Below, piece after piece: positions 1,499-31,681 of a stretch of DNA of 32,546 bases. The notes under the pieces were generated by a model that saw nothing but the letters and a program-made list of their open reading frames with translations, did no database searches and was not told where the DNA came from. Positions within the stretch are counted from its first letter, which is position 1. Each line of letters begins with the position of its first letter. A program made the position numbers and the translations under genes. Origin of the DNA: a virus; the IMG/VR virus record IMGVR_UViG_3300033273_000654, positions 1-32,546 of that record. One strand, given 5' to 3'.

Positions 1499-1929
1499 TA
1501 CTTGGTAGTATCTTCTGTATTATTTAGAAAACCTTGTTTCAGCAGTTTAGATAACTCACTTGTTGAACCAACAAACAAAGCATTGTTTGTAACATTATTT
1601 GGACCTTTTTTAGTATTATCCTCTTCCAAATCTTTTAATTTTTTCTGCAAATCTGCTAACTTATCAGTAGTATCTGCAACTGATTTAATTAACTGACCAG
1701 CAACTTCATATGCTCTAGGACTTGCACTTTCTCCTGCAAGTTCCATGATACCATTTATTGCTTCTTGACCTTTCTCAATTAATGAATATAAGTTTGCTCT
1801 TGTATATTCATAATCTTTTTTAATATCATCTTTTTCCACCTTAGGTGGAACAGGCTTCATTGGTTTAGATTCAACAATGCTACTTTCAATATCAAGTGCG
1901 TTGTCAATGGATTCATAATTATCACTCAT
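1498..1929 (-). CDS. 16: Small terminase subunit gp16
   Basis: Protein of 143 aa in the place of T4 gene 16, directly after gp15. T4 gp16 (164 aa) forms rings that recognise phage DNA and regulate the large terminase gp17 during head packaging. The layout matches T4 gp16: an acidic, flexible N-terminus; a central helical region (residues about 40-105, DYEYTRANLYSLIEKGQEA then ESASPRAYEVAGQLIKSVAD and a Lys/Leu coiled-coil segment); and a short C-terminal motif NNALFVGSTSELSKLLKQ near 115-132, the counterpart of T4 NATVFMGSPTEL. It starts 5 bases after the gp15 stop and its own stop overlaps the next ATG. The usual partner gene 17 is not the next gene here. Assignment rests on motif layout plus position and is strong. 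Confidence 0.9.
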   Translation of the reverse strand: MSDNYESIDNALDIESSIVESKPMKPVPPKVEKDDIKKDYEYTRANLYSLIEKGQEAINGIMELAGESASPRAYEVAGQLIKSVADTTDKLADLQKKLKDLEEDNTKKGPNNVTNNALFVGSTSELSKLLKQGFLNNTEDTTK

Positions 1930-1934
1930 AATTA

Positions 1935-13500: not shown

Positions 13501-15036
13501 AACATAACCTATAGCACCACTTGAGAGACCTCTAATTCTAGAACCATCTGGTGCTCTATCCTGTGTCTCAAAGTCTGAAACTCTCACCATTGTGTATGTT
13601 TGAATATCATACAGGTAAAGATCAAAACTAGTTTGTGCACCAGCGTATTTGTCATCGGTAAGTCCAAACCAATAAACTCTTGCCTGACCTATCTCTTCGC
13701 CATTACCTGAAGTTGTAGTTCCACTATTTTCCATCTCATCTCTTCTTTCATTATGAAGTTTGATGACATTTGCAGAGTTATTTGCACCACCAATATTAAT
13801 ATAAGGTGTTCCACTAACATTATTAACTCTGATAAGACTTCCCATATCAAATGGAATTCTTGCCTTAGTTGTGGGTTTTGTTGTTCTTGGTTTAGGTACA
13901 TCGATAACAGTACTACCAACATGATCAATATCAAATCCCTTCACGTATGCGGTGCCTGCAGACACCCTGATGCCCATATTTTCTTCTTTAGGTACATTAC
14001 CATCATCAGTTAATTCTTCTTCTGTGAAGAGACCTCCGTTGCCCATCTCATCATTAAGAAGATCTACAACATCAACAGTAAAATTATCTACAGCATAGTT
14101 ACCAGATTCTTCAAAAGTTCTCTTCGCAAAATATTTTCTAATTTCACTATATTGCGAAGAATTTTGAATTTTTTTAATTGCACCTTCGTCAATTTTTACC
14201 AACTCTACGAAACTAGTATCTTCGTTATCGGTAAGTAATTTCTTTGTAAGTTTTAACCTAATTCTAAATCTATCTGCACCTGGTGCTGCAAAGTTTGTAA
14301 ATCCTTTTGCATTATCATTTAATTCTGGTTCTTGATCAGAGTTTAAAATATCTTCAACAATATCAAATCCAACTCTATACGATGGTTCATTATCATATGG
14401 ATCAAGAACAATCAGAGACTTTTGAACATCTACAAAAGTTCCTCTGATAAAATATACGCCAGAATCAACACCGACCGCATATCCAGTATTAACTGCATCA
14501 ATATTGTTTAGAGTAAATACAGTATCTCCAGATACAATAGATGTATTTCCATAGGTAATATTGTCCTGAAGTATTAATACCTCTCCATCTTCAAAAGTAG
14601 TGCCTTCTTCGCCATCACCTTCAAGATATTTTACAAAAAGAGTAATTTCTTCAACACCCTCTTGAGGTGGAAGCAAATATCCACTAATTCTTGCCCTTAT
14701 ATCAGTATTTTGAGAAATTATTTCCGCACCTTTACCATCATTTGCAGAAACAATAGCATCAAGATAAAGAGATACATCAATGCCCAGATGATCTCTATTT
14801 ACCTTAACAGTCGTAAACTCATTATCACAGGTAATTGCGCCAGGAATTACCATAGAACCTTCTTTGAAGGTATGACTACCAAAAGATTCTATTTGATTTT
14901 GAAGAATCGATTGAAGACCAGTAAGTTCTCTTGCCTGAACAGGGTACCCAGGCTTGAAAAGGACCTTGTAAAAATTATCATCCTTATTAAAATCGTCGAA
15001 ATAAGGATTTACGTTTAAGTTCGTCTTTTGGGGCAT
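7600..15036 (-). CDS. DUF4815-type large tail/baseplate structural protein (2478 aa)
   Basis: One uninterrupted frame starting three bases after the gp8 stop, occupying the place of T4 genes 9-12. The N-terminus is DUF4815-like: residues 8-66 with NPYFDDFNKDDNFYKVLFKP, PVQARELTGLQSILQNQIES and FKEGSMVIPG. Residues about 1390-1416 have WMRSRNVAFYGNGLRP and a YFYLDS strand; residues about 1643-1690 have DPLAQSFTVDERGAFLTSFD and LYFARKD, features I recall in the same cyanophage family. Residues about 1879-1970 carry the GxGY repeat also found in gp14 (NGGSGYIGNEPLGI). Residues about 2089-2138 have an EEVVAYSAV then SDRGLNGSTKTTHS cassette shared with the giant protein. Near 2400-2412 DDDGDGFGD is a possible calcium loop. 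Likely a peripheral baseplate protein or fibre anchor; precise T4 counterpart unclear. Confidence 0.85.
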   Translation of the reverse strand: MPQKTNLNVNPYFDDFNKDDNFYKVLFKPGYPVQARELTGLQSILQNQIESFGSHTFKEGSMVIPGAITCDNEFTTVKVNRDHLGIDVSLYLDAIVSANDGKGAEIISQNTDIRARISGYLLPPQEGVEEITLFVKYLEGDGEEGTTFEDGEVLILQDNITYGNTSIVSGDTVFTLNNIDAVNTGYAVGVDSGVYFIRGTFVDVQKSLIVLDPYDNEPSYRVGFDIVEDILNSDQEPELNDNAKGFTNFAAPGADRFRIRLKLTKKLLTDNEDTSFVELVKIDEGAIKKIQNSSQYSEIRKYFAKRTFEESGNYAVDNFTVDVVDLLNDEMGNGGLFTEEELTDDGNVPKEENMGIRVSAGTAYVKGFDIDHVGSTVIDVPKPRTTKPTTKARIPFDMGSLIRVNNVSGTPYINIGGANNSANVIKLHNERRDEMENSGTTTSGNGEEIGQARVYWFGLTDDKYAGAQTSFDLYLYDIQTYTMVRVSDFETQDRAPDGSRIRGLSSGAIGYVSKRDGKKLYLSQTSGNFLKGEDVIINEVDETITSITRVEVYDTSDIKSVYQDFSGLTGISAAPDFVADTVLYEQPLANVGAKDLLDVDASAGTARVAGRFFKGVNGGLKKGSILKYQTANNTDPTYNVVLGVNPGGQTINLGEAPFAVTNVCSNTRVTGQHTFSLMVPRVLGYGENGLYAPMPVENIASVDLSTANLTITKQIRGQTVTGGEKTIAISDALDTSAGIVTAFFESFDQERYSITNSNGSPVKIDSSNFTLGANGETIKFTGITTTNGSTLLNANNVTFNVTLKKEGITNKTKEFVKSSTLDVVRTSGISTATGLSTSRYYGTRVEDEEISLNVPDVINVRAIYESTTNDAPVLDKLTFSTGLSLDQSVIVGEKILGNESRAIGQVVSRTSTTVDYVPLNDDTFTVGEDVTFKDSSVEAVIQQVNPGSYLDITANYRLVGAQGHQFCDYSRIERREGSPTPDRKLKIIFDHYNIGAGNGGDIFTVNSYTADRFTSDIPFTPNGLRASDLLDFRPRVKPWTDVTGYETKSPFAFENREFEYNYKYVISPGESSSVGYTYYLPRIDLVTINKLGEIEVTQGVPADDPDAPVLSDDSMELAQVLLPPYLYNTTRDPRVILRDNRRFTMRDIGKLEDRIENLEDVTSLTMLELSAKSINVTDASGLNRFKSGFVVSDFRNKSIMNQRLSTVDLQKSSGTLVAPMDLWSMDAELRLHPSIDPDTADLSQDLELPSGSGCQKTGDLITLKYTEKKWINQPHATTAENVNPFNVLVFVGGVILNPASDNWVRTIYVNDHRTESTGAKWKQEATVTRDVDRTTEIKKYDKGGGRGEKVKKAITTTKITTTTRFKPKLRGPSREFDYVEDVKVSGEADPWMRSRNVAFYGNGLRPNQRHYFYLDSQQVDIVPKLFQIQMKSGTFSHDENIIVHNKNGKRVGYMPLQRPNHKSGTRNSPEIAAGLGEPSRYAETYEINPFDKKAPAPGKGYSPTSTLMNIAINKLAQRQKFYGFVKKGFKVTGETTGAVAEITDDRLISDNWGDVIGSFFIRDPNSTPTPKTRVKSGTKTVKITALPPSNTAVPGSTRYASSAIGTYSGSGTILTQETSKVSVRNPPKPRRKRSIVDVDVKVKAAHRDPLAQSFTVDERGAFLTSFDLYFARKDPKAKVFVELRTMELGTPTSFLVQDYTQIALNPNQINVSNDPTKPVATNVKFESPVYLEPDTEYAIVILSPASDRYEMWTAKMGEKTVNSSQLPNVRKVVVTKQYIGGSLFKSQNGTIWTPSQLQDLTFTLYKAKFKTSGAVEFYNSDITPKGDNAQTLNANPIESYPRKLKLPISGTLNPAVTLGTKVTQGTGNAGINGYVEKMGAPISTGTASVSIASSGTDYKPSTTSTGVSLFSLTGKGEGAEATITTNLDGNISSVNITNGGSGYIGNEPLGITTADMGGTGGAGGSGAKITVTSRTASVDSLYLTNVQGENFTNTEDIYYYTDPVNSPTTTADSGVDVNGTSSLVDNNYTGNVFRIKQRNHAHHGGNNKIIIEDVKPDTQTTVTTAEFGINDTTVSVEDRRVFATYEGSTSGSGYALIDEEVVAYSAVTAGTGNAGTLTISDRGLNGSTKTTHSKNTSIQSYEVNGVSLMRINTTHDIPSTYHSDDNSNLDYYYLEFDRSTQFPTARDTGNSMLNFASKKGFGGKDVGISQNYQYTMIKPEFNVITPGKGTKVECNIRTISGTSAGGNEVSFLDQGFEPVVLNKRTKFPTPRLIASRVNELARIQGIPRKRSLTLRIDMESADENLSPVLDLQNAGFVIGRNKVNKPIDDYVSDSRSNTNNDPHGAVFVTKAISLANPATSLKVYIAAHRPESADFRVFYALFKADSSGVEPNFVPFPGYDNLIDDDGDGFGDRVIDPDKNSGRADAKVAANDDKGFSEYQFSVGDLEQFTAFAIKVVMSTTNESTPVKLRDFRAIALA
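12631..12649. repeat. 9-bp inverted repeat, 1-base centre
   Basis: The arms tgttacatt and aatgtaaca are perfect complements around a single a, inside the DUF4815-type gene. It could form a cruciform or only a tight mRNA turn. It may simply be codon coincidence in AT-rich DNA. Confidence 0.6.
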
Positions 15037-15039
15037 TTT

Positions 15040-16599
15040 TTAGAATTCCAGTATAATTTTTAAGTCTTCTTTTTGTCTTGGGTTTCTAGCGATACTAGAC
15101 CTGTTGTCAAGATAAATTATTTCTCCCGACCCTTTATTTATTTCAGGTACCGCAATCCCGTTTGTAAAATCAACACCAAGATTAATTAGTTTAGTTCCTG
15201 ATGGATTTGTTGTAATTCCGGAAAATCCAGAATCAATACTTCCAGTAAAGTTAGAAACTTTACCAGTAATCGTTCCACCATTAGGATCGAAACTATATGA
15301 TCTTCCATTAGTGGTGATGCCAGTATAATCTTGAGTATCTTGAGTAGTTTGATTTATGAATAAAGATCTATCAGTAAAATACTTAAGAACCTTTGTTTCA
15401 TCATCCCAAGAAGCAACATATCCGCGTGCTTTTCCAACACTTAAAATTTGTATAATTTCTTCACCAACTTTTGGTTTACCAGATAATGAACTACCTTCAA
15501 GTTTCAAAGAATACAATCCAGTAAAAGTATTCTCAGTGTAGACATCACTTGTTCCAACTTTAGTTGGATTTTTTACAATAGAAACTTGAGCAAAACTAGT
15601 GTCTACGGGGAAATCTTTAGTGGAATCATCAAATCTTGCATAAACTAATACTCTATCAGTTCCAAGTTCTTTATATATATCAAATCCATGTCCCTTTGAA
15701 GGTGGAATAATAGGAACTAAGTTAGCACTAGTACCAGTTGTATTTGAATTAATCGGTCCAAGATCTACAAATGCATAACTATAATCTTTACCACCAGAAA
15801 CTACAGTAGTATTTGTAATTTTTCCACCTTCAACATCAACTCTAACTTTACCTCCTGTTCCATCACCAATTAAATCAAATTCTTGTCCAAGACCGTTTGC
15901 ATAATTTGCACCTTCAGCAGCAATGTAAACAGTTCTAATTTGATTGTCATTTAAACTAGAATCTGCAGATTCTCTAATCGATCTAATTTGAGTATTTGTC
16001 GAAGTAGACCAATCATTTGGCACAGTAATATATTCTGTAGAATCAAATTTGATAATGTCACTAGGAGTAATTGTATAAAGATATTTCCAAATGTAACCAT
16101 CACCGCTATCACCTGCACGAGAAGGTTCTAAATCTGTGAAAGTTGGTTGATCAAGAGAGACATTTCCTTTTAAATTATTTCCATTAGATCCATTTTCAAT
16201 ACAAATGTAGACTCTATAGTCCTCATTCATTACATAATAATTTGCATCATACAATCTAGATGCATTAGTTATTGGTGCAGGATTGTTTACATCATAATCA
16301 TGCCGATACATTTCGTATCTATTACCAGCAACCCAATTAATTTTTCTTACGATGCGTCTTACATTGGCTCCAGTAATTTTTTTGCCATATAAAACAACAT
16401 CACCAGAATGAGCATTTGATGAAATGCTATCTGTAGGTGTTGGTGGGTTAGTATTCCAAGTAGTACTTCTCCCATATGCATTAATTGCTGGATTGGGAAG
16501 ACCAACAGCAATATAATATGAGTTGTTTGCAGAATCAATAGAATCTACAAAATTACTGGCATTCAGAATTCTAAATTGATCAGTAACAATTGCGGGCAT
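15040..16599 (-). CDS. 8: Baseplate wedge protein gp8
   Basis: Protein of 519 aa (T4 gp8 is 334). In T4, gp8 dimers bind gp10-gp7 and gp6 in each baseplate wedge. Family marks: residues 19-45 with DSIDSANNSYYIAVGLPNP, residues 68-101 VVLYGKKITGANVRRIVRKI and a RYEMYRHDYD strand, residues 127-134 DYRVYICI, and residues 166-178 GDGYIWKYLYTIT, then 293-314 with NLVPIIPPSKGHGFDIYKEL, all in the order expected for gp8. Residues about 222-286 hold one degenerate copy of the virion-wide beta-repeat (AAEGANYANG, then VSGGKDYSYAFVDLG). It begins 18 bases after a late promoter box, with only a weak AGATAACG ahead of the ATG. Gene order after the giant gene matches T4 7-8. Confidence 0.9.
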   Translation of the reverse strand: MPAIVTDQFRILNASNFVDSIDSANNSYYIAVGLPNPAINAYGRSTTWNTNPPTPTDSISSNAHSGDVVLYGKKITGANVRRIVRKINWVAGNRYEMYRHDYDVNNPAPITNASRLYDANYYVMNEDYRVYICIENGSNGNNLKGNVSLDQPTFTDLEPSRAGDSGDGYIWKYLYTITPSDIIKFDSTEYITVPNDWSTSTNTQIRSIRESADSSLNDNQIRTVYIAAEGANYANGLGQEFDLIGDGTGGKVRVDVEGGKITNTTVVSGGKDYSYAFVDLGPINSNTTGTSANLVPIIPPSKGHGFDIYKELGTDRVLVYARFDDSTKDFPVDTSFAQVSIVKNPTKVGTSDVYTENTFTGLYSLKLEGSSLSGKPKVGEEIIQILSVGKARGYVASWDDETKVLKYFTDRSLFINQTTQDTQDYTGITTNGRSYSFDPNGGTITGKVSNFTGSIDSGFSGITTNPSGTKLINLGVDFTNGIAVPEINKGSGEIIYLDNRSSIARNPRQKEDLKIILEF

Positions 16600-16642: not shown

Positions 16643-19600
16643 TTATTGAGCGTAGAATGGTAGATAATTATCTAATTCTAAAGAAACACCATTTTCGGGT
16701 GGTTTTCTAGATCTAACGGCACCACTCTTTTGTTCTCCAAAGTCACCTCTTCTTTGAATTGATGGGAAATTTGATAATTCAGTATCAACTGTAAGTCCAG
16801 TAACACCGATTCCAATTCCATTATTTCTAGTATCGAAGTTGTAAATTCTTCCGAAAGAAATTCTACCCAAATGTGTACAAATTCCAGATTGACTTGGGTT
16901 CCAAGCACCAGTAATAGCAATTCCAGTTACAGGACTATCTGTATGAATATTACAAATAATTTCACCATCTTCAAGAAGTCCAGTCTTAGAATGAACTTTA
17001 TATATGTTATCTAAGAAAGTTGTACCAATACCAACAACTGAATTGTTATTGCTATCTACCGAAGTAACTCCTTGACCAACAGTAGTATCATAAATCATGA
17101 CTGGATATCCTACCTGAAGATCATTCGTATCTGCAGCAACATTAAAACTTCCACCTAAAACTGCATAATCTTGTAATGCAGTAAAATTAAATTTTAAAGC
17201 CAATGGATGACCATTTGTTCCTGGACAGGTACTAATTCCAGTGATAATACCACTAAATCCCTGAACATTTAATACATTTGTAATTTCTTCAGTAAGTACT
17301 TTTGGAGATTCGATAATAGTAAAGGGTGGGTTTGTAGTTGTATATCCAAATCCAGGATTAGTTATTGTAACTGCAGAAACTTGACCATTTGTGATGGTAG
17401 CAGTAGCAGTTGCAGTAGTACCAACTCCAACTCCAATAGATTTAGGTGCAGAAAACTTAATATCCATGATCGAGCTTGTATAACCAGCACCAACATTTGT
17501 AACAGTAATTGCACTAACAGTTCCTGCAGCAGAAACAGTAGTTGTAAATTCTGCAGATGTTAATTCCTTATTGTCAGTAAAGAATGCATCAAAATCAAAT
17601 GATGATGTCTTATTAACATCCAAAATTGTGTTATCATATACAAAGAACTGTGCATTATCGACAAATATTTCAGTATCTGATGGCGATACATCTCCAATTA
17701 TTTTTGCAGTTGGGAAAATTTTAGGTTCATAGACATCTCTTGCTTTAGTGACAATGTTTCCCCTAACAAACATATCATTTTTTTGTTTAATCCAATCAAT
17801 AGGTCTGAAATTATTCTCATCAATACCATTACCAGTATAAATTTCAGTTTCCACAGTATCAGAACCAGGCATTTCGGTAATTGTTCTACTATTTTCCTGT
17901 GCGGATGTAGAATAATTTGGATGTTTCCCTACAAATAAATCATCACCAACTTTAATGGTCGATACAACTTCAACAGAAACAGAATCAACATTTTCTTCAC
18001 CAATATAGAAGAAAATATCAATTCTATCTTCTGGTTGTGGTGCTTCAGTAAAGATGAATGAAGTTCCTCCAGTAAATTGGTATGCATATCCTGGAGTTTG
18101 TAATACACCATTGACAAAAATAAGAAGTACAGAATTTAAATCAATATTTTGAGAAAGTGGATTTGCAGGATCTAATTCAAAACTTAAAAGTTCTCCTTTG
18201 TAATACAATGGGAATCTAGTTCTAGTTCCATTTTGATATCCACGAATACTATCAATGAAATCCATTTCACCGAAAGACCAAGAAGAGAATGTATCAGTGA
18301 ATGTTTCTAGAACTTCAAGTTGGAAGTTTGAAATTGGTTGAGCAAGATCTTTTGCTGTTACAAGACCAACAACTTCCATAACATCTCCAGGTTTAAATCC
18401 ATAACCAGTTCTAGTAATTTTGAAAGATTCGATGTCAAACAATGTAGATCCAATTCCAACTGTTCCTGCAGCACCAACAGTAAGATTCAATAAAAGATTT
18501 TTTCCAGTTTCGGTAGTTGCGCCAATACCAAGTCTTGATACACCAATGACTTCCATATTTTCATAATTTGGTTCGGGAATATCAAGAAATGGTTCGCTAT
18601 ATCCCGTACCAGGATTAGTGATATTAAACGCAAGTGTTCCACCAGCACCAACAATTGCTTCAACAGTTGCTCCACTTCCAGTACCACTGAGATCTGTTAC
18701 AGCAACTGAGACAGGACTTCTATATCCAGAACCAATAGAAAGATCATAATATCTTGTAATTGTTCCATCCTTTTGATATAAATGTGTAATTGTTGAAGGA
18801 CCAACATTAACAGTTAATTCTGTATCAGAAATAATATTGTAAATATCCAATGCATAATCATAATCTGGGAATATAGTTGTGGTAACACCAGCATGTACAG
18901 AATCGCAACTAAATTCAAGACCATCAAGTTTTACTCTATGATCATAATTTAAATTATGATTACTTGATGTTTCAATTCTAAGAAGACCACTTATCTTGTC
19001 ATAAGATGCTGTGGAGATTGAAACAGCATCAGCAGGTCTATACGTATTGACGCCAACAATGTTTGTAATTTCACCACTGTTATTTTTCTCTACTAAGACA
19101 GATGCTCCATATAATGGTGCATATCCAAGACCAGGAGTAGAACCATATGATACTATCAGACCACCTCTAGGAACTTGATTTTGATTAATATCAAATTCTG
19201 ATTCAATTTTAGTTCCATCAACTGAAGTGATGCCAGTATAAACAACACTGGTAATACCTGCATTAATATCTCTAATAATGTCATAATTATTACCAGTGTT
19301 GTTTTCTGTTGATGGTGTTTGGAATACTCCATTGATAAACAGAATTCCATTTCCAGGAGAAATTCCTGTAGTATCTGCACCACCAACTTTTAAAGTGTAT
19401 GTCCTACCAATACCTGTAAATTCATTTGAAATATCATCAAATACCATATTTTCATCATAATTTTGTCTCAGGAATGTTCTACCAGAGAATTCTGCTCTTA
19501 CATATGGAAGATTTTGCTCATTTCTTCTTGCGCGAGTATTTCCTTTTGGAGGATCCGTAAAGAAAATTTCATTTTTAACAATATTGAATGAACCTCTATA

Positions 19601-22600
19601 AAGTTGAACATTTGCCCCATTAAGATGAGTTGTAGAGGCACTACCAACAAAACCTCTTGTGACAGAAACTGTATTAAAAGTTGCACCAATACCAGATTGA
19701 ATTACACCTGTAATAGGACCAAGAATTTCCCCATTGACGTTACTTGAAAAACCAACACTTTCAATCTTCATATACTCATCATCAATACGAAGAATATCTC
19801 TTGGTTGAAGTGATGAGATTCCACTTATATTAAATGTACTAATTCCTGCAGAAATACCTCCAGAGAAATAATGACCATTATTTTCAAGAATGTAATTAAT
19901 TGGTGTAAATGTAATCGGTTTTTGTACAATTCCATCAATACCAATAACTGTCTTAGAAAGTTTTTTGGTAAATTCTAATTCATGTGCATTACCTAATCCT
20001 GCACTAGTGAACGTTATAGCAATTCCCGCCCTCGCATATTCTTCCCTAGATGCAAGTTGGAATGTATCTGGAGTGATTGCAATAGCATAAACTTTTTCTG
20101 GAAGCACTGTGGTAACAATACCCGCATAGTTTGCTGTTGCACCAATACCCATTCCAGTCTGCCCAATACCAGTAAAAGTTGATCTTGGAATATAAGTCAG
20201 ATCTTCACCAGTGTTAAAGAAGTGATTTGGATATGTAAATATTCCAGTTGCGTAATCAATTTTTGTAGTATCTGCTGGATCAAATGACTTATTGTAAATT
20301 GGATTGCCTTGATAAGTGAGTGGGAAATTAACCCTATTTGCTCTCAATCCATTGATACCATCAAAGGCACTAAGATAGAGATAATGGTTTGTTGGACCAT
20401 ACTTCAATGGTAATGCCTGGTTATCAAAGTCCATCTGTCGGTAAAAGACCTCATTGAATGCCTGAGCAGTCAAATCTCCACCACCATAATATCGTGTATC
20501 TGGATAGAAGTTCAGGAAGAAATTATTACCACTTATCTCTGAACCAAATGTACCAAGACCAACAGTCTCATTTACTTGAGAGAATAGTCCAGGAATTACA
20601 GTAACTTCTTTATCTACAAAGTTTGCTAAAGTATAAACTTGATGTACTGCTGATGTTTCTCCTACAGAAACACGAACAATAGATGTTGCGGAAGAATTTA
20701 AATCAAAGTCAAAGGTTCCAACTCTAACAACATCTGTACCATAACCGACAGTGCTCTCAAAAATACCACTTCTTTCAGTTCCTGCTGGTTGATTATTAAG
20801 TAGGAATCTATATGTTCCAATACCTGAAGAAGTGGTGCCAAATCCAACAATATTGGCACGAACAGTTAATGAATTTGTTGATGATATTCCAGAATTGATT
20901 GCTCTAAAGGACACAATTCCAGCAGTAGAATCGTATGTGGCAGTTACAATTCCTATTTGAGATGCACTATAGGAAAGAGTATTCGTGTCAAAATAATATT
21001 CACTGATGTGAGTATTAGTTCCATCAAAATCTAATGTTGCTTCAACAACATTCGTGTTACCAAACAAATCTGAAATTTCAATATTAGCAAAAGCACCATT
21101 GAAATCGGATACATTAAATTCTTTAAATGTCTTGATGCTAGAAGCAGTTCCTACACTAGTAATTCCTGCAACAAAAGATCCTGTAAGATCAATAGATCCA
21201 AAACTTTCGATTCCAATACCAGACTGACCAGATGGAAGACCTTGATACAAGTATGTCTTTTTGAGAATTTTAATATCATGATCTCTATCAAATGGATCTG
21301 TTGGTACAAATCTTAAAGATCTTCTTCCAGCAGAATCAATATTTGCTTCAAAATTTCCAAGTTTAATATTACTATAAGCAGTATGCTTTTCAAATAAGAA
21401 AACATCAAGAGATGTAGATTGGTATAATAATTCGCTAAGTTGAATATCACCAGTGTCTGGATCTTGAATCTGAACCAAATATCTTACATGATTATCAAGA
21501 AAATCTATTACATCTATCTCTACAAATCTATCCTTAAATCCTCTACTGGAGAATTTATCAGAAATATCATCATGAATTAAAACTCTATTTGTTTTACACT
21601 CAATATAGTCATTCAGTTTTCTATTTTGAATCCTTAGAGTATTTGATTGTTGTAAGTTTGAATTTAAAGGATTTAATCTTGGATTATCATCAAGTGCATT
21701 ATCAAAATTATTGATGATATCTACTCTTCTTTCACCAACAACATCCAAAATAACAATTGCAGTTGTTGTGCCACCCAAACTTACTATGCTAGAACCAGTT
21801 GATTGAATTCCAACATCGGCAAAGTTCTTAAGACCTGCTGGATGGATAAGACTATTTACAGGATTACTTTGTTCTGCCCAAGTAATTGGACTTTTAATAG
21901 AATATGAAAGGTTTTGATAATAGTCATTATCTGGAATTGTCTGATAGTCCTCACTAAGTTTTCCAATATTATCATTCCAACCAACATTCAATTTTGAAGA
22001 ATAATCAATTTTAAATCTTGCTCGTTTAGTATCAACAGATATAACTTTTGCAATTACACCACTAATAAACCCTTTAATAAGATCATTCTTTTTAAGTTTA
22101 TACCTACCCCCAACTTTTATATAATCGTCTCTTACAAGAGAAACAGAAAGATCTCTTTCTTCCCATTTTGGCGATTGTCCAAATGCAACAGGTTGACTTA
22201 CATAAAGATTTTCATTTTTTGCAAAAACTCCACGTTCTTGAATTACATCAATTTCGGGATAATTCTTTGAATTAATAATAGTTGCAAATCCATTTTGATA
22301 TGTTTTAGCAATACCTGCATTAGTGGTTAAACCAACACCATTCTCATCTAATATCTTAAATACAAGTGTTGCTGGACTTGTATTAGCATAATCAGTAACT
22401 TCAAAAAATCTATAATCATAATTCGCAGAATTATATCCATCTCCAACTCCAGGTATTGCTTGTTCAACACCTTCAATGAAAACTTTATCTCCAACAGCAA
22501 ATGGTGCTATATTAAAACCAAGAGTTGGTGTTTCTAATGTGCAAGTTGCAACTCCACTTGTTGCAGACACCATTGATACAATACCAACACCATTAGAGTT

Positions 22601-25600
22601 ATCAACACAAATAATTTTATGTGGTTCTGATTCTAAACCAAATATTGGAGCAATTTGCTCAATTTCAGAAATTGCTCCAAAAGGTGCTTTTGCAACTAAT
22701 GAAGTAGAATCGACAATTGCTTTTCTAGTCTCATTCCAAAGTAAAACATTTGGACTATTAAGATATCTTGCTCCAGCATTTTTGATATTTACTTCTTTAA
22801 AAACATCTAGATTATCAATAGAGACAATTGGTGGAACACTAGCTTCTGGTCTAAGAGTTTTATCTGAAGGATAATCATACCCAACGTCTTTCAATCTAAG
22901 AGTTTTTATCCTTCCAATAGAAGTTGATACACCTTGAATGTTTGCATTAACACCATCAACAGAAGTTATACTTTCAACTTTAGGAAGTGTATCAAAATTA
23001 AATCCTTCAGAAATAATTTTTACCTTTGCAATAGATCCATTCAATGCAGTTTCTGATTGAGTATTGTATGATAAAACATCACACTGTGATGAATTATAAT
23101 TCAATACACTTGGATATCTATAAGGAGAAATTTTAAAGGTAGTACTCGTGACACCTGCAATCCCATAAACTTTATAACTTCCATTGTACTCACTATCAAT
23201 ATAATTAATTTTGGAATAATTTACTACATTAGTATCAGCAGTACTAATATAACCACCTTTCTCAAAAGTATAATAAAGTTCTGATGGTACATTTTCAGAA
23301 TAATTAATAGTCAAAGATGCATTACCTGTACCTCCATCACCAGTATTGGAAACATTAAATTCTCTACTATCACTAGAAGTTACATATTCATTAATAAATT
23401 CTTTCTCTCTGTAAATTTTTAATTTATATCCTTTAAGAGACTCATCATTTAAAAGGAATTTTAGATTTCCATTTCTAACAACATTAATTTGTGGATTTAT
23501 TAATCCGATAGTATGAATACCAATACCAGTATCAATTATATTAACTTCATTTCTAGTGTTTACATTTGTATCATATAAAGTTTCTGCCAACTTAAATTCA
23601 TTATCAGAAACTTTAATAGTATAATAAGAACCTACTGCAAGACCTGAAGCAACATTATTTGCTTCAAGAAATACTTTATCTCCAGTTTTAAATCCATGAT
23701 TGGTATATGATAATGTATTAGTATTTGTGTTAATTCCTGTAGTAGGAATACCCAAAGGATTTACAATAATTTTATGATCATGATAATTGATTTTAATATT
23801 AAGTGCAGCAGTAGTTCCCAATCCAACTATAGTATTTGGATTAACTGTTAACTTAATACTATCACCATTTTGTAGTCCATGTGTAGCAGAAGTACCGACA
23901 AGGGTTACAATTCTAGAAACGTCTCCGGTAACTTGTTTTTTCTGAGTTTCAAGCAAAAATTCATGATGGTCACTACCAGCAAGTTTGAAAAATACTCCAT
24001 CAGATGCTGTAATGTCCGAAAGTTGAGTCACAAGACCGATATGATCTGGTCCTTTTTTAATAACATAAACTTCAGATTCTCTTGTTACTGCATCTGGTAA
24101 AAAGAAGTTTGTAGATCCTGCTTCTGCCGATACAGTTATTGGAGTTGCGTAAGATGGAACATGGAAACGAAGTTTTTGTCCAGATTTAAATGGATGATTT
24201 GGAAGATAGATTGTACGAGTTGGAACATTTACAGATACAAAAGTTCCATCTGGACGTTCAATTGCATTGAGAGATATAGAAGCACCTTGAGTGGTTCCAA
24301 TTCCAACTTGCTTTAATGCATTGAAATATACAATATCATTCCTTTCAGATGTAAACTTATCTGTAACTACAGGTAAAGTAATTCTATCATTGTGAAGATT
24401 TAAAGTACTCCCAATAGAGTGTGCAGCTCCAGGACCTGTATTAAATCTCTTAACTTTTAAGATACCATTACCATAATCATTAAGAACCCTTACAGTTTCT
24501 TCACCATCAGAAGATACAATAGTTATTGAGTTACCTACGTTTAGATTTTTAAATTTATTAGAAATATATATTGTTTCAGTTAATGGACCTTGACCTGCAC
24601 TATATGCGGTCATAGTAGACGCAAGAGCCACAGATTCTGAAGTAAATCCTACTTTCTTTGATCCCTCTAATCTTGCAATAGATGTTGAAAGTCCACTAAC
24701 AAGAACAGCATTTTCATCAAATAAATCATACCCACCATTACGATAGTATGCAGATACTTGACTTTCATTATCCCAGACAAAAACTGAGTTTGGATAATTT
24801 TCTAATGTGGTGCTCAAAGAAGTAACATCTACTCCTTTCAATTCTGTTACTTCTCCTCTTACTTCAGAAACATCAAGCCCATCAGAATTAAAGTTTACAC
24901 GATCACCAATCCTATATCCTTTACCTCCAGAAATAATTTTAACTTCGGGAACAGATCCCTTAGTTACTGCTTCAACAATACCAGGTTGATCAATAGTTTC
25001 ATAAGATTCATTAAAGAAATCATATTCTATTGATGGCTCATTTACATTATATGGAAAAGTATTTCTCACTAAATCACTTGAGTTGAAATCAAATGTTTGA
25101 TCTAAAACTTTATTTTCATTGATAAAGTTTGATTTAAGTGTATTTCCTACAAAGTACGGATATTCTGGAACAAAATCATTAATTGATTGAACATTTTTTA
25201 CACTAGCAAAGTATGCATAAGTTCCATTTGGAAATTCAGGAGTTTTGCAAAATCTTCCATTATGTTTATCAAGATCTCCAGAATTATTATAAACATAATC
25301 TTCGATAAAGAAACCTGCTTCAAATTGTGGTCTATCTATGACGCTACTAGTGCTAATCTCATAACTAGACTGAATTCTTTTAATCGCAGACCCTGCAGTA
25401 TCCGCATCAGTATATGCAAAAGGTCCATAAATTGGATTTCCATCATATGCCCAACCAATAATTGGTGAGTGACTACCATCTAAAGATTCTAAATTACCTG
25501 CAAGATCTTCAGAATATCCATAAATTCCATAATTAAGATATTCATTTTCTTTATTATTACTCAGACTTGCAAAAATTTGATTGGTTTGATTGTTTAGTGA

Positions 25601-28600
25601 AATCTTTCCAAATCTAAATGCATCGTTAATTGTAAGATCTCTAACTCTAGTATCAAATATTGCACCAGAACCTCTTGGATCTATAAAAATAGATGTTGAA
25701 TTTGGATTATATCCAATACCTGTGTTAAGTACAATAACATTATCAATCTTACCATCTTTTACTACAGGGCGTAATAATGCTCCAACTCCACCCGATGGAT
25801 CTTCAATAGTAATATTTGGTATGGAAGTATATCCAGTTCCCTTATTAAGTATTTGGACATCTTCAATTCTACCATTAACAATAATTGGATTTACCTGAGC
25901 ATTTTTGCCCTTAGAGATGGAAACAAGAGGTTTTTTATGAACATTAAATGTTGTTGATCCATATCCTGCACCATTTTCATACAGATAGGCATCATGTATT
26001 GGTCCAGTTATAACAGGAGTAAAAGTAAATGTACCTAATCCAATATAAGTTGCTTCAACTTTAATTTCTGGATCTTTGAATATTTGATATCCAGTGCCTT
26101 TAGAATTTAATTTTGTTATTTTAGATTTTGTTAGATCTGTTGTAATTGATCCGCCGACACCAACATTAATAAGACTAAAAGAATCATCAGATACTTTTAC
26201 AATAGAATATTGATTTGTGGTAGATAGTCCTTCAATTACTGTTCCAGTGGTTTCATAGTTTACAATCTCACCTGTTTCAAAACCATGATTTTTAAAGTTA
26301 ATTGTATCAAAAGAAGTGGAAATACCAGATGCCTTTACCCTAAGTTTTCTGTTGGAATATCCAGAACCAGGATTTAAAACTCTAATAGATCTTAAATTAT
26401 TTTTAGATTGCGTTCTAAATTTGTGAATACCAGGAGCAGCGGTTGCTTCTGCAAGACCAATAGTATTAATTCCTAATCTAGTTACATTATTATTTAAATC
26501 TACTTCTGGAGCATCTGCTTTTGTTTTATAAAGTTGAATTGTTGATGTATTAATAAATCCTACAATATATTCATCTCCACTTTGAAGTGTGCTAGTTTGA
26601 GTATTAGTTGCATCCCCAGCAACACCAATTGCAAGTGGATCATTTCCATTTTGATTGTAAATGATTACATCACCAGTTTTTAATCCATGTGGTCTATCAA
26701 ATGTAATAGTTTCTGCATCAATATCAATTCCACCACCGAGAGCAAGTCTTCTACTATCAAACTTCATCTCACGGAATCTGGATCCAACAACTGGTTCCAA
26801 TTCACATCCAGAACCATTACCACCAGTTAAACTGATGGAAGTAACACTTTTAACATCAAACTCTTGTGGATCTACATAAACATCTTTAACAGAACCTTTA
26901 ATATAAGGTTGTACTTTTGCAGTTTCTCCTACTCCTGCACTGATTGTAATTTCTGGAGGACTAAGAACATCATAATCTTTACCACCATTTAATACATCAA
27001 AAGATGATAGTGGACCATAGTAAACTTTATTTTGAGAATTTGGACTTACTATTTCAACACCATCAATTAAAATACCAATAGAACCATCAATTCTTTTATC
27101 TGGATTGATATCATTATTAGATGGTTTTAATGGAAATTTTCTTAAAATTCTATTATCAGCAATTTTTCTATTGCTATGTCTCTTAAGTGTAAATGTATGC
27201 GTGCCAGCAACTGTATTTGGTCCAATTCTTCTGTGTTCACCACTTTCAAGAAGTTCTTTAGAAAGATAAAGTTTAATTTTTCTTTCAGATACTAATACAA
27301 CATAATATGTTTCACCAGATTCTAATCCAGAGTATGGATTATCTGATGTATAGACTATCTGATCACCATCACTAAAAGAAATTGGATTTGAAAATTCAAC
27401 TGAATCATACGCCCTATAAAATGAATCAAAGTCTGAAAGTGAACTACCAGGAGATGTTTCTACAGTAGTTTCTTCAACAATATTTTCTACAATTTCATAT
27501 CCAGGCAATGAGTTAGATGCAACATACCCATATGTTCCATCATTATCAGTATACACATTTAAGACGTTTGAAACTTGCTTATCATTACCATATAAAAGAT
27601 CTGCACCAGAACTAGATGCTTTTACAATTTTTCTTCTAATACTATATGATCTTGTTGGATCTGGTACAAATCCTGAAGTATTTGTTAAAGTAACAATTTT
27701 ATTTGCAGGATCAATGGATGATACTGTTGCAAATGATCCAGAGGGTGTAGATGGATAGACAACCGTCCCGATACCAATTGTACCTGCAACAATTTCTACA
27801 AAATCTCCAACTTTTAATGATGCCTCATTAATAACAGAATCAAATCCTAAAGAAAATGTAGATCCATTTACTGATTCTGCAATATAGCGAGTGCTAGTAT
27901 TGTAAATCCATGAATTTGCAAATACTTCTTTGAAAGTCTGATCACCTTCAGGATTTGGAATTATCTCCCCCAAATTTCTTACACCAATTTCCTCCCCATC
28001 TTCCATAAGAGGAATATCTTCAAGAGGTTCAAATTCGGAAAGTACGCCAGTTACACGTAAATATACTTTTTTAGTAATATCACCATCTTCATATCCAAAA
28101 ACACTTTCATCAGATCTAATTAATTGTCCAAGTTTTATATTGACACCAATTCCACTATCTCTACCTGCACCAACACAACCATAAAATTGATTAATACTCT
28201 TAGAAGTATATGTGATAACAGTATTTGAATTTACTATTCTTACTGGATTGGATGATGAAGTAACAAAATTTACAGACTCAGTATTTGTAACAAGAGTTCC
28301 AGTTTGACCAAATCCAATTGTAGAATCTACTGTAATAATAGAATCATCTGGATTTACATCTTCAATAACTCTAGAGGCACCAGGAATAGAGAATAGTCCT
28401 CGAATATGCTGCCTATCATCATTTCCTACAAAAATACCTAATCTGTAAAATGTTTCACCGTTTCTTGTAAATATTTCAACCTCAGATATTGATGCACTTA
28501 CATTTGTATCACCAGTTTTAAAAATAGTCTGACCTTTTAGTTTAAAAGGATCACCATATTCATAAAGACCAGTTGTTTCATTTAAAAATGGTAAATTTTT

Positions 28601-29356
28601 AACGACAAAAATTTCTCTTCGAATATATTCTGCAGAAGAAGGTTTTACAAGTCTCTGTTCAAGATCTATAACCTCCGCATTGGCACCGTAGAGGACCTTG
28701 AAGAGTATTCTAATAGACTCTTCGATACCTTTTGCCTGATAGAAGTTTCTGGCGTTTTTAATGAAGTTTCCAACGTCCAGATCATCTACAAATTTAAGGT
28801 CTTCAAATCCAGGAGTAAAAGTTGCTTTTAATTTTTTATAAAATTCTTGAAGAAATAGAACACTTAAGTTTGTTACAGTCTCACTAGTTTCATGAGTAGA
28901 TGCTTCTGTCTCAGAGAATAAAAGAGTTTCTCTATTAGTGAAGTTAATGGTATCAGAAATATTTTTAGTGTATCCAGTGACACCACTAAAACCACGTATA
29001 CACCCAGTAAATGATGTATCAGTTTTTCCAGTATATGTAATAATTTCATCGTTGATCTTTAAAAGACCATAATCATCCGGAAATCCTTTTGTTGATTCAA
29101 CACTAATGGTTGTTGCAGAAGCATCAATATCCGAAGAGAGAGTTGTAGATCCAACAATAACCTCTGGAACAAGATTATCAACCTTAATATAACGATCAAG
29201 GTTGTCCACCAGGTCAATATTACCTCCCTGATATTCCTGAGAGATATAATATTGTTTAAAAAAGTCTACCGATTTTGGAAAATCGGCAACTAAAAATTCT
29301 GGAAGTTGGCTCTCAATAATCTTATTGAGTTGCACTCTCTTCTCAAAATTCGACAT
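16643..29356 (-). CDS. Giant baseplate structural protein in gene 7 position (4237 aa)
   Basis: One intact frame of 12.7 kb between genes 6 and 8, where T4 has gene 7 (1032 aa); cyanophage counterparts are often labelled VrlC. Residues 1-60 and 160-255 (VQLNKIIESQLPEFLVADFP; NARNFYQAKGIEESIRILFK; VLYGANAEVIDLEQRLVKPS) look like the conserved baseplate-attachment end. Residues 72-137 are inserted with INDEIITYTG and TGCIRGFSG. A YHYH domain sits at about 1285-1390 (GWAYDGNPIYGPFAY, EDYVY, NGRFCKTPEFPNGTYAYFA). About fifteen GxGY repeats, several HGFxTGDxVxY units (near 655, 885, 1020, 1880, 3045) and three NGVxQxP units (near 3140, 3335, 3744) fill the rest. SD GAGGAAAT is encoded by the end of gene 6. 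Likely wraps the wedge and projects arms; function inferred from place and family. Confidence 0.88.
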   Translation of the reverse strand: MSNFEKRVQLNKIIESQLPEFLVADFPKSVDFFKQYYISQEYQGGNIDLVDNLDRYIKVDNLVPEVIVGSTTLSSDIDASATTISVESTKGFPDDYGLLKINDEIITYTGKTDTSFTGCIRGFSGVTGYTKNISDTINFTNRETLLFSETEASTHETSETVTNLSVLFLQEFYKKLKATFTPGFEDLKFVDDLDVGNFIKNARNFYQAKGIEESIRILFKVLYGANAEVIDLEQRLVKPSSAEYIRREIFVVKNLPFLNETTGLYEYGDPFKLKGQTIFKTGDTNVSASISEVEIFTRNGETFYRLGIFVGNDDRQHIRGLFSIPGASRVIEDVNPDDSIITVDSTIGFGQTGTLVTNTESVNFVTSSSNPVRIVNSNTVITYTSKSINQFYGCVGAGRDSGIGVNIKLGQLIRSDESVFGYEDGDITKKVYLRVTGVLSEFEPLEDIPLMEDGEEIGVRNLGEIIPNPEGDQTFKEVFANSWIYNTSTRYIAESVNGSTFSLGFDSVINEASLKVGDFVEIVAGTIGIGTVVYPSTPSGSFATVSSIDPANKIVTLTNTSGFVPDPTRSYSIRRKIVKASSSGADLLYGNDKQVSNVLNVYTDNDGTYGYVASNSLPGYEIVENIVEETTVETSPGSSLSDFDSFYRAYDSVEFSNPISFSDGDQIVYTSDNPYSGLESGETYYVVLVSERKIKLYLSKELLESGEHRRIGPNTVAGTHTFTLKRHSNRKIADNRILRKFPLKPSNNDINPDKRIDGSIGILIDGVEIVSPNSQNKVYYGPLSSFDVLNGGKDYDVLSPPEITISAGVGETAKVQPYIKGSVKDVYVDPQEFDVKSVTSISLTGGNGSGCELEPVVGSRFREMKFDSRRLALGGGIDIDAETITFDRPHGLKTGDVIIYNQNGNDPLAIGVAGDATNTQTSTLQSGDEYIVGFINTSTIQLYKTKADAPEVDLNNNVTRLGINTIGLAEATAAPGIHKFRTQSKNNLRSIRVLNPGSGYSNRKLRVKASGISTSFDTINFKNHGFETGEIVNYETTGTVIEGLSTTNQYSIVKVSDDSFSLINVGVGGSITTDLTKSKITKLNSKGTGYQIFKDPEIKVEATYIGLGTFTFTPVITGPIHDAYLYENGAGYGSTTFNVHKKPLVSISKGKNAQVNPIIVNGRIEDVQILNKGTGYTSIPNITIEDPSGGVGALLRPVVKDGKIDNVIVLNTGIGYNPNSTSIFIDPRGSGAIFDTRVRDLTINDAFRFGKISLNNQTNQIFASLSNNKENEYLNYGIYGYSEDLAGNLESLDGSHSPIIGWAYDGNPIYGPFAYTDADTAGSAIKRIQSSYEISTSSVIDRPQFEAGFFIEDYVYNNSGDLDKHNGRFCKTPEFPNGTYAYFASVKNVQSINDFVPEYPYFVGNTLKSNFINENKVLDQTFDFNSSDLVRNTFPYNVNEPSIEYDFFNESYETIDQPGIVEAVTKGSVPEVKIISGGKGYRIGDRVNFNSDGLDVSEVRGEVTELKGVDVTSLSTTLENYPNSVFVWDNESQVSAYYRNGGYDLFDENAVLVSGLSTSIARLEGSKKVGFTSESVALASTMTAYSAGQGPLTETIYISNKFKNLNVGNSITIVSSDGEETVRVLNDYGNGILKVKRFNTGPGAAHSIGSTLNLHNDRITLPVVTDKFTSERNDIVYFNALKQVGIGTTQGASISLNAIERPDGTFVSVNVPTRTIYLPNHPFKSGQKLRFHVPSYATPITVSAEAGSTNFFLPDAVTRESEVYVIKKGPDHIGLVTQLSDITASDGVFFKLAGSDHHEFLLETQKKQVTGDVSRIVTLVGTSATHGLQNGDSIKLTVNPNTIVGLGTTAALNIKINYHDHKIIVNPLGIPTTGINTNTNTLSYTNHGFKTGDKVFLEANNVASGLAVGSYYTIKVSDNEFKLAETLYDTNVNTRNEVNIIDTGIGIHTIGLINPQINVVRNGNLKFLLNDESLKGYKLKIYREKEFINEYVTSSDSREFNVSNTGDGGTGNASLTINYSENVPSELYYTFEKGGYISTADTNVVNYSKINYIDSEYNGSYKVYGIAGVTSTTFKISPYRYPSVLNYNSSQCDVLSYNTQSETALNGSIAKVKIISEGFNFDTLPKVESITSVDGVNANIQGVSTSIGRIKTLRLKDVGYDYPSDKTLRPEASVPPIVSIDNLDVFKEVNIKNAGARYLNSPNVLLWNETRKAIVDSTSLVAKAPFGAISEIEQIAPIFGLESEPHKIICVDNSNGVGIVSMVSATSGVATCTLETPTLGFNIAPFAVGDKVFIEGVEQAIPGVGDGYNSANYDYRFFEVTDYANTSPATLVFKILDENGVGLTTNAGIAKTYQNGFATIINSKNYPEIDVIQERGVFAKNENLYVSQPVAFGQSPKWEERDLSVSLVRDDYIKVGGRYKLKKNDLIKGFISGVIAKVISVDTKRARFKIDYSSKLNVGWNDNIGKLSEDYQTIPDNDYYQNLSYSIKSPITWAEQSNPVNSLIHPAGLKNFADVGIQSTGSSIVSLGGTTTAIVILDVVGERRVDIINNFDNALDDNPRLNPLNSNLQQSNTLRIQNRKLNDYIECKTNRVLIHDDISDKFSSRGFKDRFVEIDVIDFLDNHVRYLVQIQDPDTGDIQLSELLYQSTSLDVFLFEKHTAYSNIKLGNFEANIDSAGRRSLRFVPTDPFDRDHDIKILKKTYLYQGLPSGQSGIGIESFGSIDLTGSFVAGITSVGTASSIKTFKEFNVSDFNGAFANIEISDLFGNTNVVEATLDFDGTNTHISEYYFDTNTLSYSASQIGIVTATYDSTAGIVSFRAINSGISSTNSLTVRANIVGFGTTSSGIGTYRFLLNNQPAGTERSGIFESTVGYGTDVVRVGTFDFDLNSSATSIVRVSVGETSAVHQVYTLANFVDKEVTVIPGLFSQVNETVGLGTFGSEISGNNFFLNFYPDTRYYGGGDLTAQAFNEVFYRQMDFDNQALPLKYGPTNHYLYLSAFDGINGLRANRVNFPLTYQGNPIYNKSFDPADTTKIDYATGIFTYPNHFFNTGEDLTYIPRSTFTGIGQTGMGIGATANYAGIVTTVLPEKVYAIAITPDTFQLASREEYARAGIAITFTSAGLGNAHELEFTKKLSKTVIGIDGIVQKPITFTPINYILENNGHYFSGGISAGISTFNISGISSLQPRDILRIDDEYMKIESVGFSSNVNGEILGPITGVIQSGIGATFNTVSVTRGFVGSASTTHLNGANVQLYRGSFNIVKNEIFFTDPPKGNTRARRNEQNLPYVRAEFSGRTFLRQNYDENMVFDDISNEFTGIGRTYTLKVGGADTTGISPGNGILFINGVFQTPSTENNTGNNYDIIRDINAGITSVVYTGITSVDGTKIESEFDINQNQVPRGGLIVSYGSTPGLGYAPLYGASVLVEKNNSGEITNIVGVNTYRPADAVSISTASYDKISGLLRIETSSNHNLNYDHRVKLDGLEFSCDSVHAGVTTTIFPDYDYALDIYNIISDTELTVNVGPSTITHLYQKDGTITRYYDLSIGSGYRSPVSVAVTDLSGTGSGATVEAIVGAGGTLAFNITNPGTGYSEPFLDIPEPNYENMEVIGVSRLGIGATTETGKNLLLNLTVGAAGTVGIGSTLFDIESFKITRTGYGFKPGDVMEVVGLVTAKDLAQPISNFQLEVLETFTDTFSSWSFGEMDFIDSIRGYQNGTRTRFPLYYKGELLSFELDPANPLSQNIDLNSVLLIFVNGVLQTPGYAYQFTGGTSFIFTEAPQPEDRIDIFFYIGEENVDSVSVEVVSTIKVGDDLFVGKHPNYSTSAQENSRTITEMPGSDTVETEIYTGNGIDENNFRPIDWIKQKNDMFVRGNIVTKARDVYEPKIFPTAKIIGDVSPSDTEIFVDNAQFFVYDNTILDVNKTSSFDFDAFFTDNKELTSAEFTTTVSAAGTVSAITVTNVGAGYTSSIMDIKFSAPKSIGVGVGTTATATATITNGQVSAVTITNPGFGYTTTNPPFTIIESPKVLTEEITNVLNVQGFSGIITGISTCPGTNGHPLALKFNFTALQDYAVLGGSFNVAADTNDLQVGYPVMIYDTTVGQGVTSVDSNNNSVVGIGTTFLDNIYKVHSKTGLLEDGEIICNIHTDSPVTGIAITGAWNPSQSGICTHLGRISFGRIYNFDTRNNGIGIGVTGLTVDTELSNFPSIQRRGDFGEQKSGAVRSRKPPENGVSLELDNYLPFYAQ
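18941..18960. repeat. 20-bp perfect palindrome in the giant gene
   Basis: atcataatttaaattatgat reads the same on both strands. It falls in codons for NLNYDH. Symmetry stops on both sides. Function unknown; it may be chance in AT-rich DNA. Confidence 0.65.
22645..22680. repeat. 12-bp inverted repeat with 12-base loop in the giant gene
   Basis: ttggagcaattt (22645-22656) and aaattgctccaa (22669-22680) are exact complements. In the mRNA they would pair as a 12-bp hairpin. The encoded peptide FGAISEIEQIAPIFG is itself near-palindromic. No intergenic position, so not a classical terminator. Confidence 0.75.
25187..25504 (-). other. YHYH domain inside the giant protein
   Basis: Coding segment for residues about 1285-1390. 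It shows the family pattern H-S-P-I-I-G-W-A-Y-D-G-N-P-I-Y-G-P, a serine/tyrosine segment (SSYEIST), EDYVY, LDKHNGRF, TPEFPNGTYAYF. The final motif reads YAYF rather than the eponymous YHYH, so the name-giving histidines are absent. Domain function is unknown. Confidence 0.8.
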
Positions 29357-31279: not shown

Positions 31280-31681
31280 TTATCGGGTTGCCTCTAAAAT
31301 GAACGAGAACTCTTGAGGTGGTAAATCTAATCCAACAACATCAAAGTAGACATTCACATCAAAACTGTTATTATCGGGTCTAATGTTAACTTCTACGAAG
31401 ACATTTTCAACACGAGGTTCATAAAATCGAATTGTTTCAATGATTTGGTCTTCAATAACCTTTGATGTAGCAACATCAACAAGTTCAAATAGACTTGCTC
31501 TAACATCAGATCCCAAATCAGAGTTAAAAAATCGCTCTGTTGGGATTGTTTCTACTAAATTACGTACAGATCTGATGATTGCACGCTCATTAATAAGTAC
31601 AGGAAGGTCCTTCGTCACAGGATGTGGATCAAATGAGAAACTTATATCCTTAAATGCTCTAGAAGTCCTGGAAGGAGGCAT
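31280..31681 (-). CDS. 25: Baseplate wedge protein gp25
   Basis: Protein of 133 aa, almost equal to T4 gp25 (132). gp25 joins gp6 in the inner baseplate and primes sheath polymerisation; its relatives are found in all contractile injection systems (GPW/gp25 family). Residues 8-25 RAFKDISFSFDPHPVTKD, residues 32-66 with ERAIIRSVRNLVETIPTERF and SDLGSDVRASLFE, and the family's EPR motif at 88-90 (RFYEPRVENV) are all present, followed by the C-terminal strands VNVYFDV and FSFILEATR. It is the first gene after the late promoter at 31706-31713, so it likely heads the baseplate transcript. Confidence 0.96.
   Translation of the reverse strand: MPPSRTSRAFKDISFSFDPHPVTKDLPVLINERAIIRSVRNLVETIPTERFFNSDLGSDVRASLFELVDVATSKVIEDQIIETIRFYEPRVENVFVEVNIRPDNNSFDVNVYFDVVGLDLPPQEFSFILEATR

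Follow-up and report, generated by a model that had tools for sequence, protein, structure and literature searches.

A 4237-residue gp7-type baseplate wedge protein of a T4-like cyanophage with an apparently split core

The 4237-residue protein encoded on the minus strand of the window (the whole 32,546-base stretch of viral DNA analysed here) is very probably the gp7 orthologue of a T4-like cyanophage of the Kyanoviridae type, with a split core and arms that would point outward. Its gene stands in the gp7 position, the first half of its core is homologous to T4 gp7 by profile comparison, and its segments keep a fixed order in close relatives. What the analysis contributes is anatomical: judged from the protein sequences, the chain appears to have grown inside and behind a conserved wedge core.

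Gene setting

The window is a structural block of a T4-like cyanophage, in which the following genes were located:

31280-31681, minus strand: gp25 baseplate wedge protein, 133 aa
29360-31276, minus strand: gp6 baseplate wedge protein, 638 aa
16643-29356, minus strand: gp7-type baseplate wedge protein, 4237 aa (open reading frame, PHROG 2885, relatives)
15040-16599, minus strand: gp8 baseplate wedge protein, 519 aa
7600-15036, minus strand: VrlC homologue of 2478 aa, distinct from gp7 (matches to VrlC-labelled proteins)

Beyond the gene at 7600-15036 lie, among others, genes resembling gp13, gp14, gp15 and gp16. The open reading frame at 16643-29356 starts with ATG, runs through 4237 codons with zero internal stops and takes up 12714 bases, or 39% of the window, and the protein is 4.1 times as long as T4 gp7 (1032 aa); a reading made earlier from the sequence alone (the sequence-only reading) had described a single frame filling more than a third of the window and encoding about four times the length of the T4 protein, and was accurate on both counts. 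The order gp25-gp6-X-gp8, where X is the 4237-residue frame, is common to P-SSM2, P-HM2, S-SRM01 and HTVC008M, and X is named gp7 in the P-SSM2 and P-HM2 records. The gene thus lies between gp6 and gp8, as in T4 and P-SSM2.

Homology to gp7

The protein matched PHROG 2885 ('baseplate wedge subunit') with 3720.8 bits, the best stretch being residues 4-3435 on positions 6-3327 of the 4179-position profile. The following features were located within it:

28610-28831, minus strand: gp7 core half 1, residues 176-249 by the motif model, extended by hhalign to about residue 308; aligns with T4 gp7 712-813
22067-28609, minus strand: insert between the core halves, residues 250-2430, 2181 aa; the borders are those of the motif models
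27242-27406, minus strand: HGFxTGD-type unit 1, residues 651-705
26501-26716, minus strand: HGFxTGD-type unit 2, residues 881-952
26168-26308, minus strand: HGFxTGD-type unit 3, residues 1017-1063
25664-26005, minus strand: GxGY beta-repeat units, residues 1118-1231
25196-25528, minus strand: YHYH (PF14240) domain without the HxH motif, residues 1277-1387 (Pfam 94.3 bits, cut-off 25)
23588-23722, minus strand: HGFxTGD-type unit 4, residues 1879-1923
21776-22066, minus strand: gp7 core half 2, residues 2431-2527, YYQxxSYxIKS...HPAG; probable counterpart of T4 gp7 854-903
16646-21775, minus strand: C-terminal extension, residues 2528-4237, 1710 aa
18662-19054, minus strand: variable slot, residues 3435-3565, with a tandem-repeat expansion in P-SSM2
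18530-18766, minus strand: GxGY units, residues 3531-3609
17300-17524, minus strand: GxGY units, residues 3945-4019

The motif model places the counterpart of residues 176-249 at residues 712-758 of T4 gp7. When the family profile (first 640 residues) was compared with T4 gp7 by hhalign, residues 200-304 aligned with 729-809 at E 6.8e-7 and 33% identity, and with T4 gp7 and eight of its relatives combined in one profile the values were E 2.5e-8 and 34%; the controls gave E 0.15 for T4 gp6, E 0.18 for gp10 and, for the YHYH region compared with that gp7 profile, E 0.16. Prepared without nine T4-type gp7 proteins, a half-1 model recovered all nine among 10,329 six-frame ORFs (E 3.5e-8 to 7.5e-7; the nine are mutually related and are not nine independent matches), the next unrelated ORF standing at E 0.77. 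The half-1 model includes some of the proteins it finds; T4, V09, Moby, phiM12, Melnitz-2 and HTVC008M were held out. At a permissive limit, a tblastn search with 161 residues of the half-1 region resulted in 803 records; 25 of the 60 listed were not from cyanophages, and 22 of these 25 matches (E 0.4 or weaker) fell in genes carrying a baseplate wedge annotation. The gp7, gp10 and gp12 proteins of non-cyanophage T4-like genomes are described in PMC3037559 as divergent enough to form up to nine clusters.

The Pfam models of T4 gp7 (PF21427, PF21456 and PF21428) matched T4 gp7 and not the window protein (E up to 1), and the latter is therefore not assigned to the narrow T4 form of gp7. PF23786 (Baseplate_wedge), whose 27-bit cut-off was passed by the Moby, Cr30, Melnitz-2 and phiM12 proteins, reached 24.1 bits on residues 1-300 and 19.2 bits on the whole window protein. 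Zero matches resulted from a PDB sequence search with the whole protein and with its segment A1, and likewise from an NCBIfam scan of the N-terminus. A poor structure model of the N-terminus (mean pLDDT 58.5) was compared with 350,542 chains by Foldseek, and the top two matches came from the T4 (5iv5) and KP1 (9f4a) baseplates, at E 1.9e-3 and 2.3e-3 with TM-scores of 0.10 or less, the chain length being that of gp7 in both entries; a VIA-align comparison of the same model gave Z 7.8, within noise, and placed T4 gp7 no higher than unrelated proteins.

A baseplate (wedge) role is well supported. The sequence-only reading had called the product a baseplate protein, and gene order, PHROG 2885 and the profile homology to T4 gp7 bear this out, as does a virion orthologue from the literature: Table 3 of PMC10665884 lists a short gp7 orthologue in S-CREM2 virions, with 91 unique peptides and 27.2% coverage, which by sequence comparison is homologous to the window protein.

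A core in two halves

The piece YYQxxSYxIxS...HPAG, which forms the end of the short S-CREM2 protein, lies at residues 2431-2527 of the window protein. Both motif models together found half 1 followed by half 2 in 13 of 13 proteins following gp6, a count to which Moby, Cr30, Melnitz-2 and S-PM2 contribute no independent half 2, having been picked via their half-2 matches, and in which the half-2 values of T4 and V09 were weak (1.7e-4 and 6.6e-4 within the 13-protein set). A fourteenth, from the pelagiphage HTVC008M, lies outside both models and gave E 2e-19 for half 1 and E 6.7e-24 for half 2 in a three-protein set. The half-2 model includes some of the proteins it finds, with T4, V09, phiM12, S-SRM01 and HTVC008M held out. 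Of the 14 proteins, some do not sit directly between gp6 and gp8 or have less certain neighbours: in S-PM2 and Melnitz-2 further genes intervene ahead of the nearest downstream gene annotated as gp8 or wedge, S-ShM2 was checked on the gp6 side, and the neighbours in Cr30 are named only 'baseplate wedge subunit'.

The halves are separated by 95 residues in T4, 105 in the KVP40-like V09, 215 in Moby, 346 in Melnitz-2, 489 in HTVC008M, 503 in Cr30, 780 in phiM12, 1547 in S-PM2, 1596 in S-CREM2, 2103 in S-SRM01, 2181 in the window, 2185 in P-SSM2, 2309 in P-HM2 and 2696 in S-ShM2. In 44 complete long proteins, the window's included, this distance was 2078-2188 residues. After half 2 there follow from 4 residues (S-CREM2) to about 2660 (P-SSM2 and S-ShM2), with 1710 in the window. 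With a separation of 95 residues in T4 against 2181 in the window, the length would grow inside the core and behind it.

Half 2 is strong in the compact and cyanophage proteins and weak in T4. Comparison with T4 by hhalign gave E 0.0071 and 0.017, and because the decoy search of the 10,329 ORFs placed the nine T4-type gp7 proteins at E 0.0042-0.18 with one unrelated ORF at 0.16, the homology of half 2 to T4 gp7 854-903 is only probable, not proved. A PDB sequence search with segment A3 returned chance-level matches only. It appears that a very large inserted arm has split a small, ancient gp7 core. PMC6300606 describes the T4 (gp6)2-gp7 heterotrimer as having a helix bundle and a trifurcation domain, and we infer that both halves belong to it. 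Among the papers listed by literature searches in which subscription journals were thinly covered, none described a split gp7 core or a baseplate structure of a Kyanoviridae phage.

Relatives, segment order and repeats

One long frame spans the gp7 match in each of 79 IMG/VR loci. The 80 best among at least 600 stretches with a match, a choice in which close relatives are over-represented, supplied 41 complete IMG/VR relatives, and P-SSM2 and S-SRM01 were added by hand to give 43; other named phages were chosen by eye. The 43 proteins are single frames of 3870-5195 residues (median 4271), and all are collinear with the window protein, 95-100% of which is covered. When the latter was cut into 42 segments of 150 residues, 41 were matched in every relative, with median identities of 35-65%, and the remaining one, starting at residue 3401, was matched in 39 of the 43. 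Among five further cyanophages the protein after gp6 has 6198 (S-ShM2), 4454 (P-HM2), 4314 (S-CAM7), 3048 (S-PM2) and 1937 (S-CREM2) residues. The sequence-only reading had judged the size unusual, while allowing that relatives of the same length and order would make it ordinary; such relatives exist within the clade, and across wider cyanophages the length varies from 1937 to 6198 residues. The 4237-residue frame is a real, large and ordinary gp7, not exceptional for its group. A chance ORF or an assembly artefact is ruled out by the open frames in the relatives and by low dN/dS.

A tblastn search with the first third of the protein resulted in 465 records from phages, each with Synechococcus, Prochlorococcus, cyanophage or marine virus in its name, with at least 80% of the piece covered in 94; the middle third resulted in 121 records (79 covered) and the last third in 97 (18 covered). 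The full-length form is thus confined to a narrower set than the family. Megablast returned a single match of 57 bases, found in two records that belong to the same phage.

Several observations were made in passing. The loci L052, L080 and L081 carry about 95 extra residues at about 114-215 of gp7, a second insertion point near the N-terminus, and in S-ShM2 (L088) about 500 extra residues lie ahead of half 1, which is preceded by 676 residues. The gp7 match in S-SKS1 (HQ633071, about 127902-140267) is spread across an unannotated stretch and several 'hypothetical protein' features. Fragments resembling gp7 were also met in metagenome-assembled genomes titled Flavobacteriales, Flavobacteriaceae, Euryarchaeota, Gamma- and Betaproteobacteria (L089-L094 and L163), and these are likely mis-binned phage contigs.

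The weak repeats in the window protein comprise eight GxGY matches, one of them marginal, and four HGFxTGD units, as counted by models built from those very units. The protein had been described beforehand as a mosaic of repeat cassettes, and the repeats are indeed there, but the description is overstated: in a segment-wise self-search the best-scoring pair was 41% identical over 58 residues, and assembly as a mosaic is ruled out by a segment order that is the same in all 43 relatives. In P-SSM2 (L002), residues of about 3477-4327 form a tandem-repeat expansion in a slot that is small in the window. The gp14-like neck protein (2780-4225, minus strand) has four GxGY beta-repeat units of the same type as those of gp7, and the 'head closure Hc2' PHROG match of gp7 probably stems from these shared repeats.

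Rates of evolution

Rates were compared over the 16 of 79 IMG/VR loci that have complete gp6, gp7, gp8 and VrlC genes. Median identity to the window was 69.5% for gp6, 69.2% for gp8, 66.9% for gp7 residues 1-250 and 66.9% for gp25 (14 loci), and it was 49.5% for the gp7 insert, 55.8% for the gp7 extension and 54.5% for VrlC. Against the nearest relative (L004, 87% amino acid identity), the dN/dS of gp7 was 0.27 overall and 0.11-0.37 by segment, with values of 0.11 for residues 1-250 and 0.18 for the YHYH region, and none above 0.37 in the remainder. Residues 1-250 change at the slow pace of gp6 and gp8, and the arms evolve faster, which fits an exposed or outer position and points to no particular function. 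Adhesion or a sheath-enclosing skirt, which the sequence-only reading had suggested on the strength of the size, would be hypothetical functions.

The faster insert and extension, together with a last third matched in fewer phage records than the first (97 and 465), would also suit a protein that is mainly a host-recognition adhesin on the baseplate, its repeats and YHYH domain binding the cell surface and setting host range. We consider this unlikely, since no hypervariable, adhesin-like tip stands out among close relatives, the segment order is kept in all 43, nearly every 150-residue segment is found throughout them at the identities given above, dN/dS stays at 0.11-0.37 along the chain, and the YHYH-bearing segment is itself well conserved (58% among the 43).

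The YHYH-derived domain

The presence of a YHYH domain, claimed in the sequence-only reading, holds: PF14240 matched residues 1277-1387 well above its cut-off, over the later part of the domain (profile positions 72-183 of 193). For comparison, the best 80 of 136 YHYH domains from a genome collection were aligned with 12 gp7 copies, and seven of the 80, the gp7-like fragments L089-L094 and L163, were retained in the counts. YAYF, at residues 1380-1383 of the window protein, had been taken for a degenerate and unusual version of the motif that names the domain. It is likewise the norm outside gp7, the equivalent site in the genome-collection domains having A as second letter in 62 of 80 and F as fourth in 62 of 80. 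The loss of histidines was nevertheless rightly suspected, at another site: upstream of HSPxxGW, 72 of the 80 segments carry the motif [YH]H[YHN]H (seven of the eight without it are the gp7-like fragments in metagenome bins), its two histidine columns being occupied in 73 of 80 each, and an upstream H.H occurs in 0 of 79 gp7 copies. Against a profile built from the 72 domains with the motif, matches of the 79 copies begin at position 64 or later, the motif lying at 54-57, and Pfam matches begin at profile positions 72-88, save for one of six other records that begins at 28. H1296 is kept in 78 of the 79 copies, where YAYF occurs in 74, YAYH in three and YAYY in two. The domain was found in the long and short cyanophage gp7 proteins checked, and there was no match in the Moby, Cr30, Melnitz-2, phiM12 and HTVC008M proteins. 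A structure model of residues 1030-1440 (mean pLDDT 66.4) found nothing better than E 0.98 in a PDB structure search.

For jumbo-phage YHYH proteins, PMC7824862 predicts a metal hydrolase in which three histidines and one aspartate form a zinc site. An enzyme of that proposed kind, metal-dependent, associated with the tail and opening the cell wall, would accord with the retention of H1296, D1305, D1353 and D1363 in gp7, but it is very improbable here because the HxH motif is missing in 79 of 79 copies, whose profile matches begin past its position, as do the Pfam matches with the single exception noted. The gp7 region, which lacks most of the predicted metal site, is best described as a YHYH-derived domain only.

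Relation to VrlC

According to PMC7029224, T4 gp7 is missing from cyano- and pelagimyophages and apparently replaced by VrlC. That the window protein is such a VrlC-type replacement is almost certainly wrong: both are very large proteins of the baseplate region, with only short repeat matches in common (46 and 73 residues against VrlC-labelled proteins), but the protein following gp6 carries the gp7 core, and a separate VrlC homologue follows gp8 at 7600-15036. The latter matched six of six proteins compared (VrlC-labelled or similar in S-SRM01, P-HM2, HTVC008M, phiM12 (vrlC-like) and S-PM2, and the protein in the same place in P-SSM2), with 38.6% identity over 2533 columns to S-SRM01 'VriC' and, for the portion of HTVC008M VrlC that was retrieved, 29% over 968. 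A VrlC identity for the gp7 gene, with which the sequence-only reading had proposed comparison, is contradicted by gene order and core homology. This clears a confusion of labels, as the gp7 core sits in the protein after gp6 and VrlC is a separate gene; proteins after gp6 with the core are annotated 'hypothetical', 'structural' or 'head closure', the last of which, in HTVC008M, perhaps reflects the same shared GxGY repeats.

Proposed architecture

In the gp7 reading preferred here, the two core halves would pack against a pair of gp6 chains to form the wedge heterotrimer, the building unit of the baseplate. In this lineage the core would have been opened by the 2181-residue insert, with its repeat-bearing modules and YHYH domain without HxH, and the chain lengthened by the 1710-residue C-terminal extension. 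Insert and extension probably reach outward as arms at the wedge periphery, and probably take the place of peripheral parts made in a different way in T4. More speculatively, cyanophage gp7 may be an accordion protein, its wedge core cut in two by an arm exceeding 2000 residues. Together with the C-terminal extensions, six of these arms might form a large outer tier of the baseplate and carry a YHYH module that has no metal and either touches the envelope of the cyanobacterium or holds the fibres, replacing peripheral baseplate proteins of T4. We advance this as a possible but rather doubtful extension of the model. Among the proteins examined a wedge protein can grow more than tenfold, from 503 to 6198 residues, with its core kept, and the boundaries given here supply concrete domains for structural work on these phages.

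Comparison with known systems

The P-SSM2 protein (AAX44489.1) and PHROG 2885 resemble the window protein in place, order and segments, with 47% identity over residues 4-3484; the P-SSM2 protein differs in its 5195 residues, about 850 of them extra tandem-repeat residues in the slot at window residues 3435-3565. T4 gp7 (PDB 5iv5 and 5hx2) likewise lies between gp6 and gp8, and its half 1 is homologous and its half 2 probably so, but about 711 residues precede half 1 in T4 against 175 in the window, and 129 follow half 2 against 1710. The compact proteins in the gp7 position (Moby 503, Cr30 767, Melnitz-2 896, phiM12 1007 and HTVC008M 1016 aa) have both halves and a gene that follows gp6, and differ from the window protein in having no YHYH match and only 215-780 residues between the halves. 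With PF14240 proteins the window protein has the later part of the domain in common, whereas the HxH motif and the part before it are missing. In the Anabaena myophage A-1(L), whose wedge is described in PMC10966104 as (gp31)2-gp32, one copy of an insertion domain reaches outside and holds a long tail fibre. The likeness, by description, lies in a wedge heterotrimer protein with an insertion domain, although the A-1(L) insertion has about 100 residues and belongs to the two-copy protein gp31; by analogy, A-1(L) may serve as a precedent for wedge insertions as outward arms.
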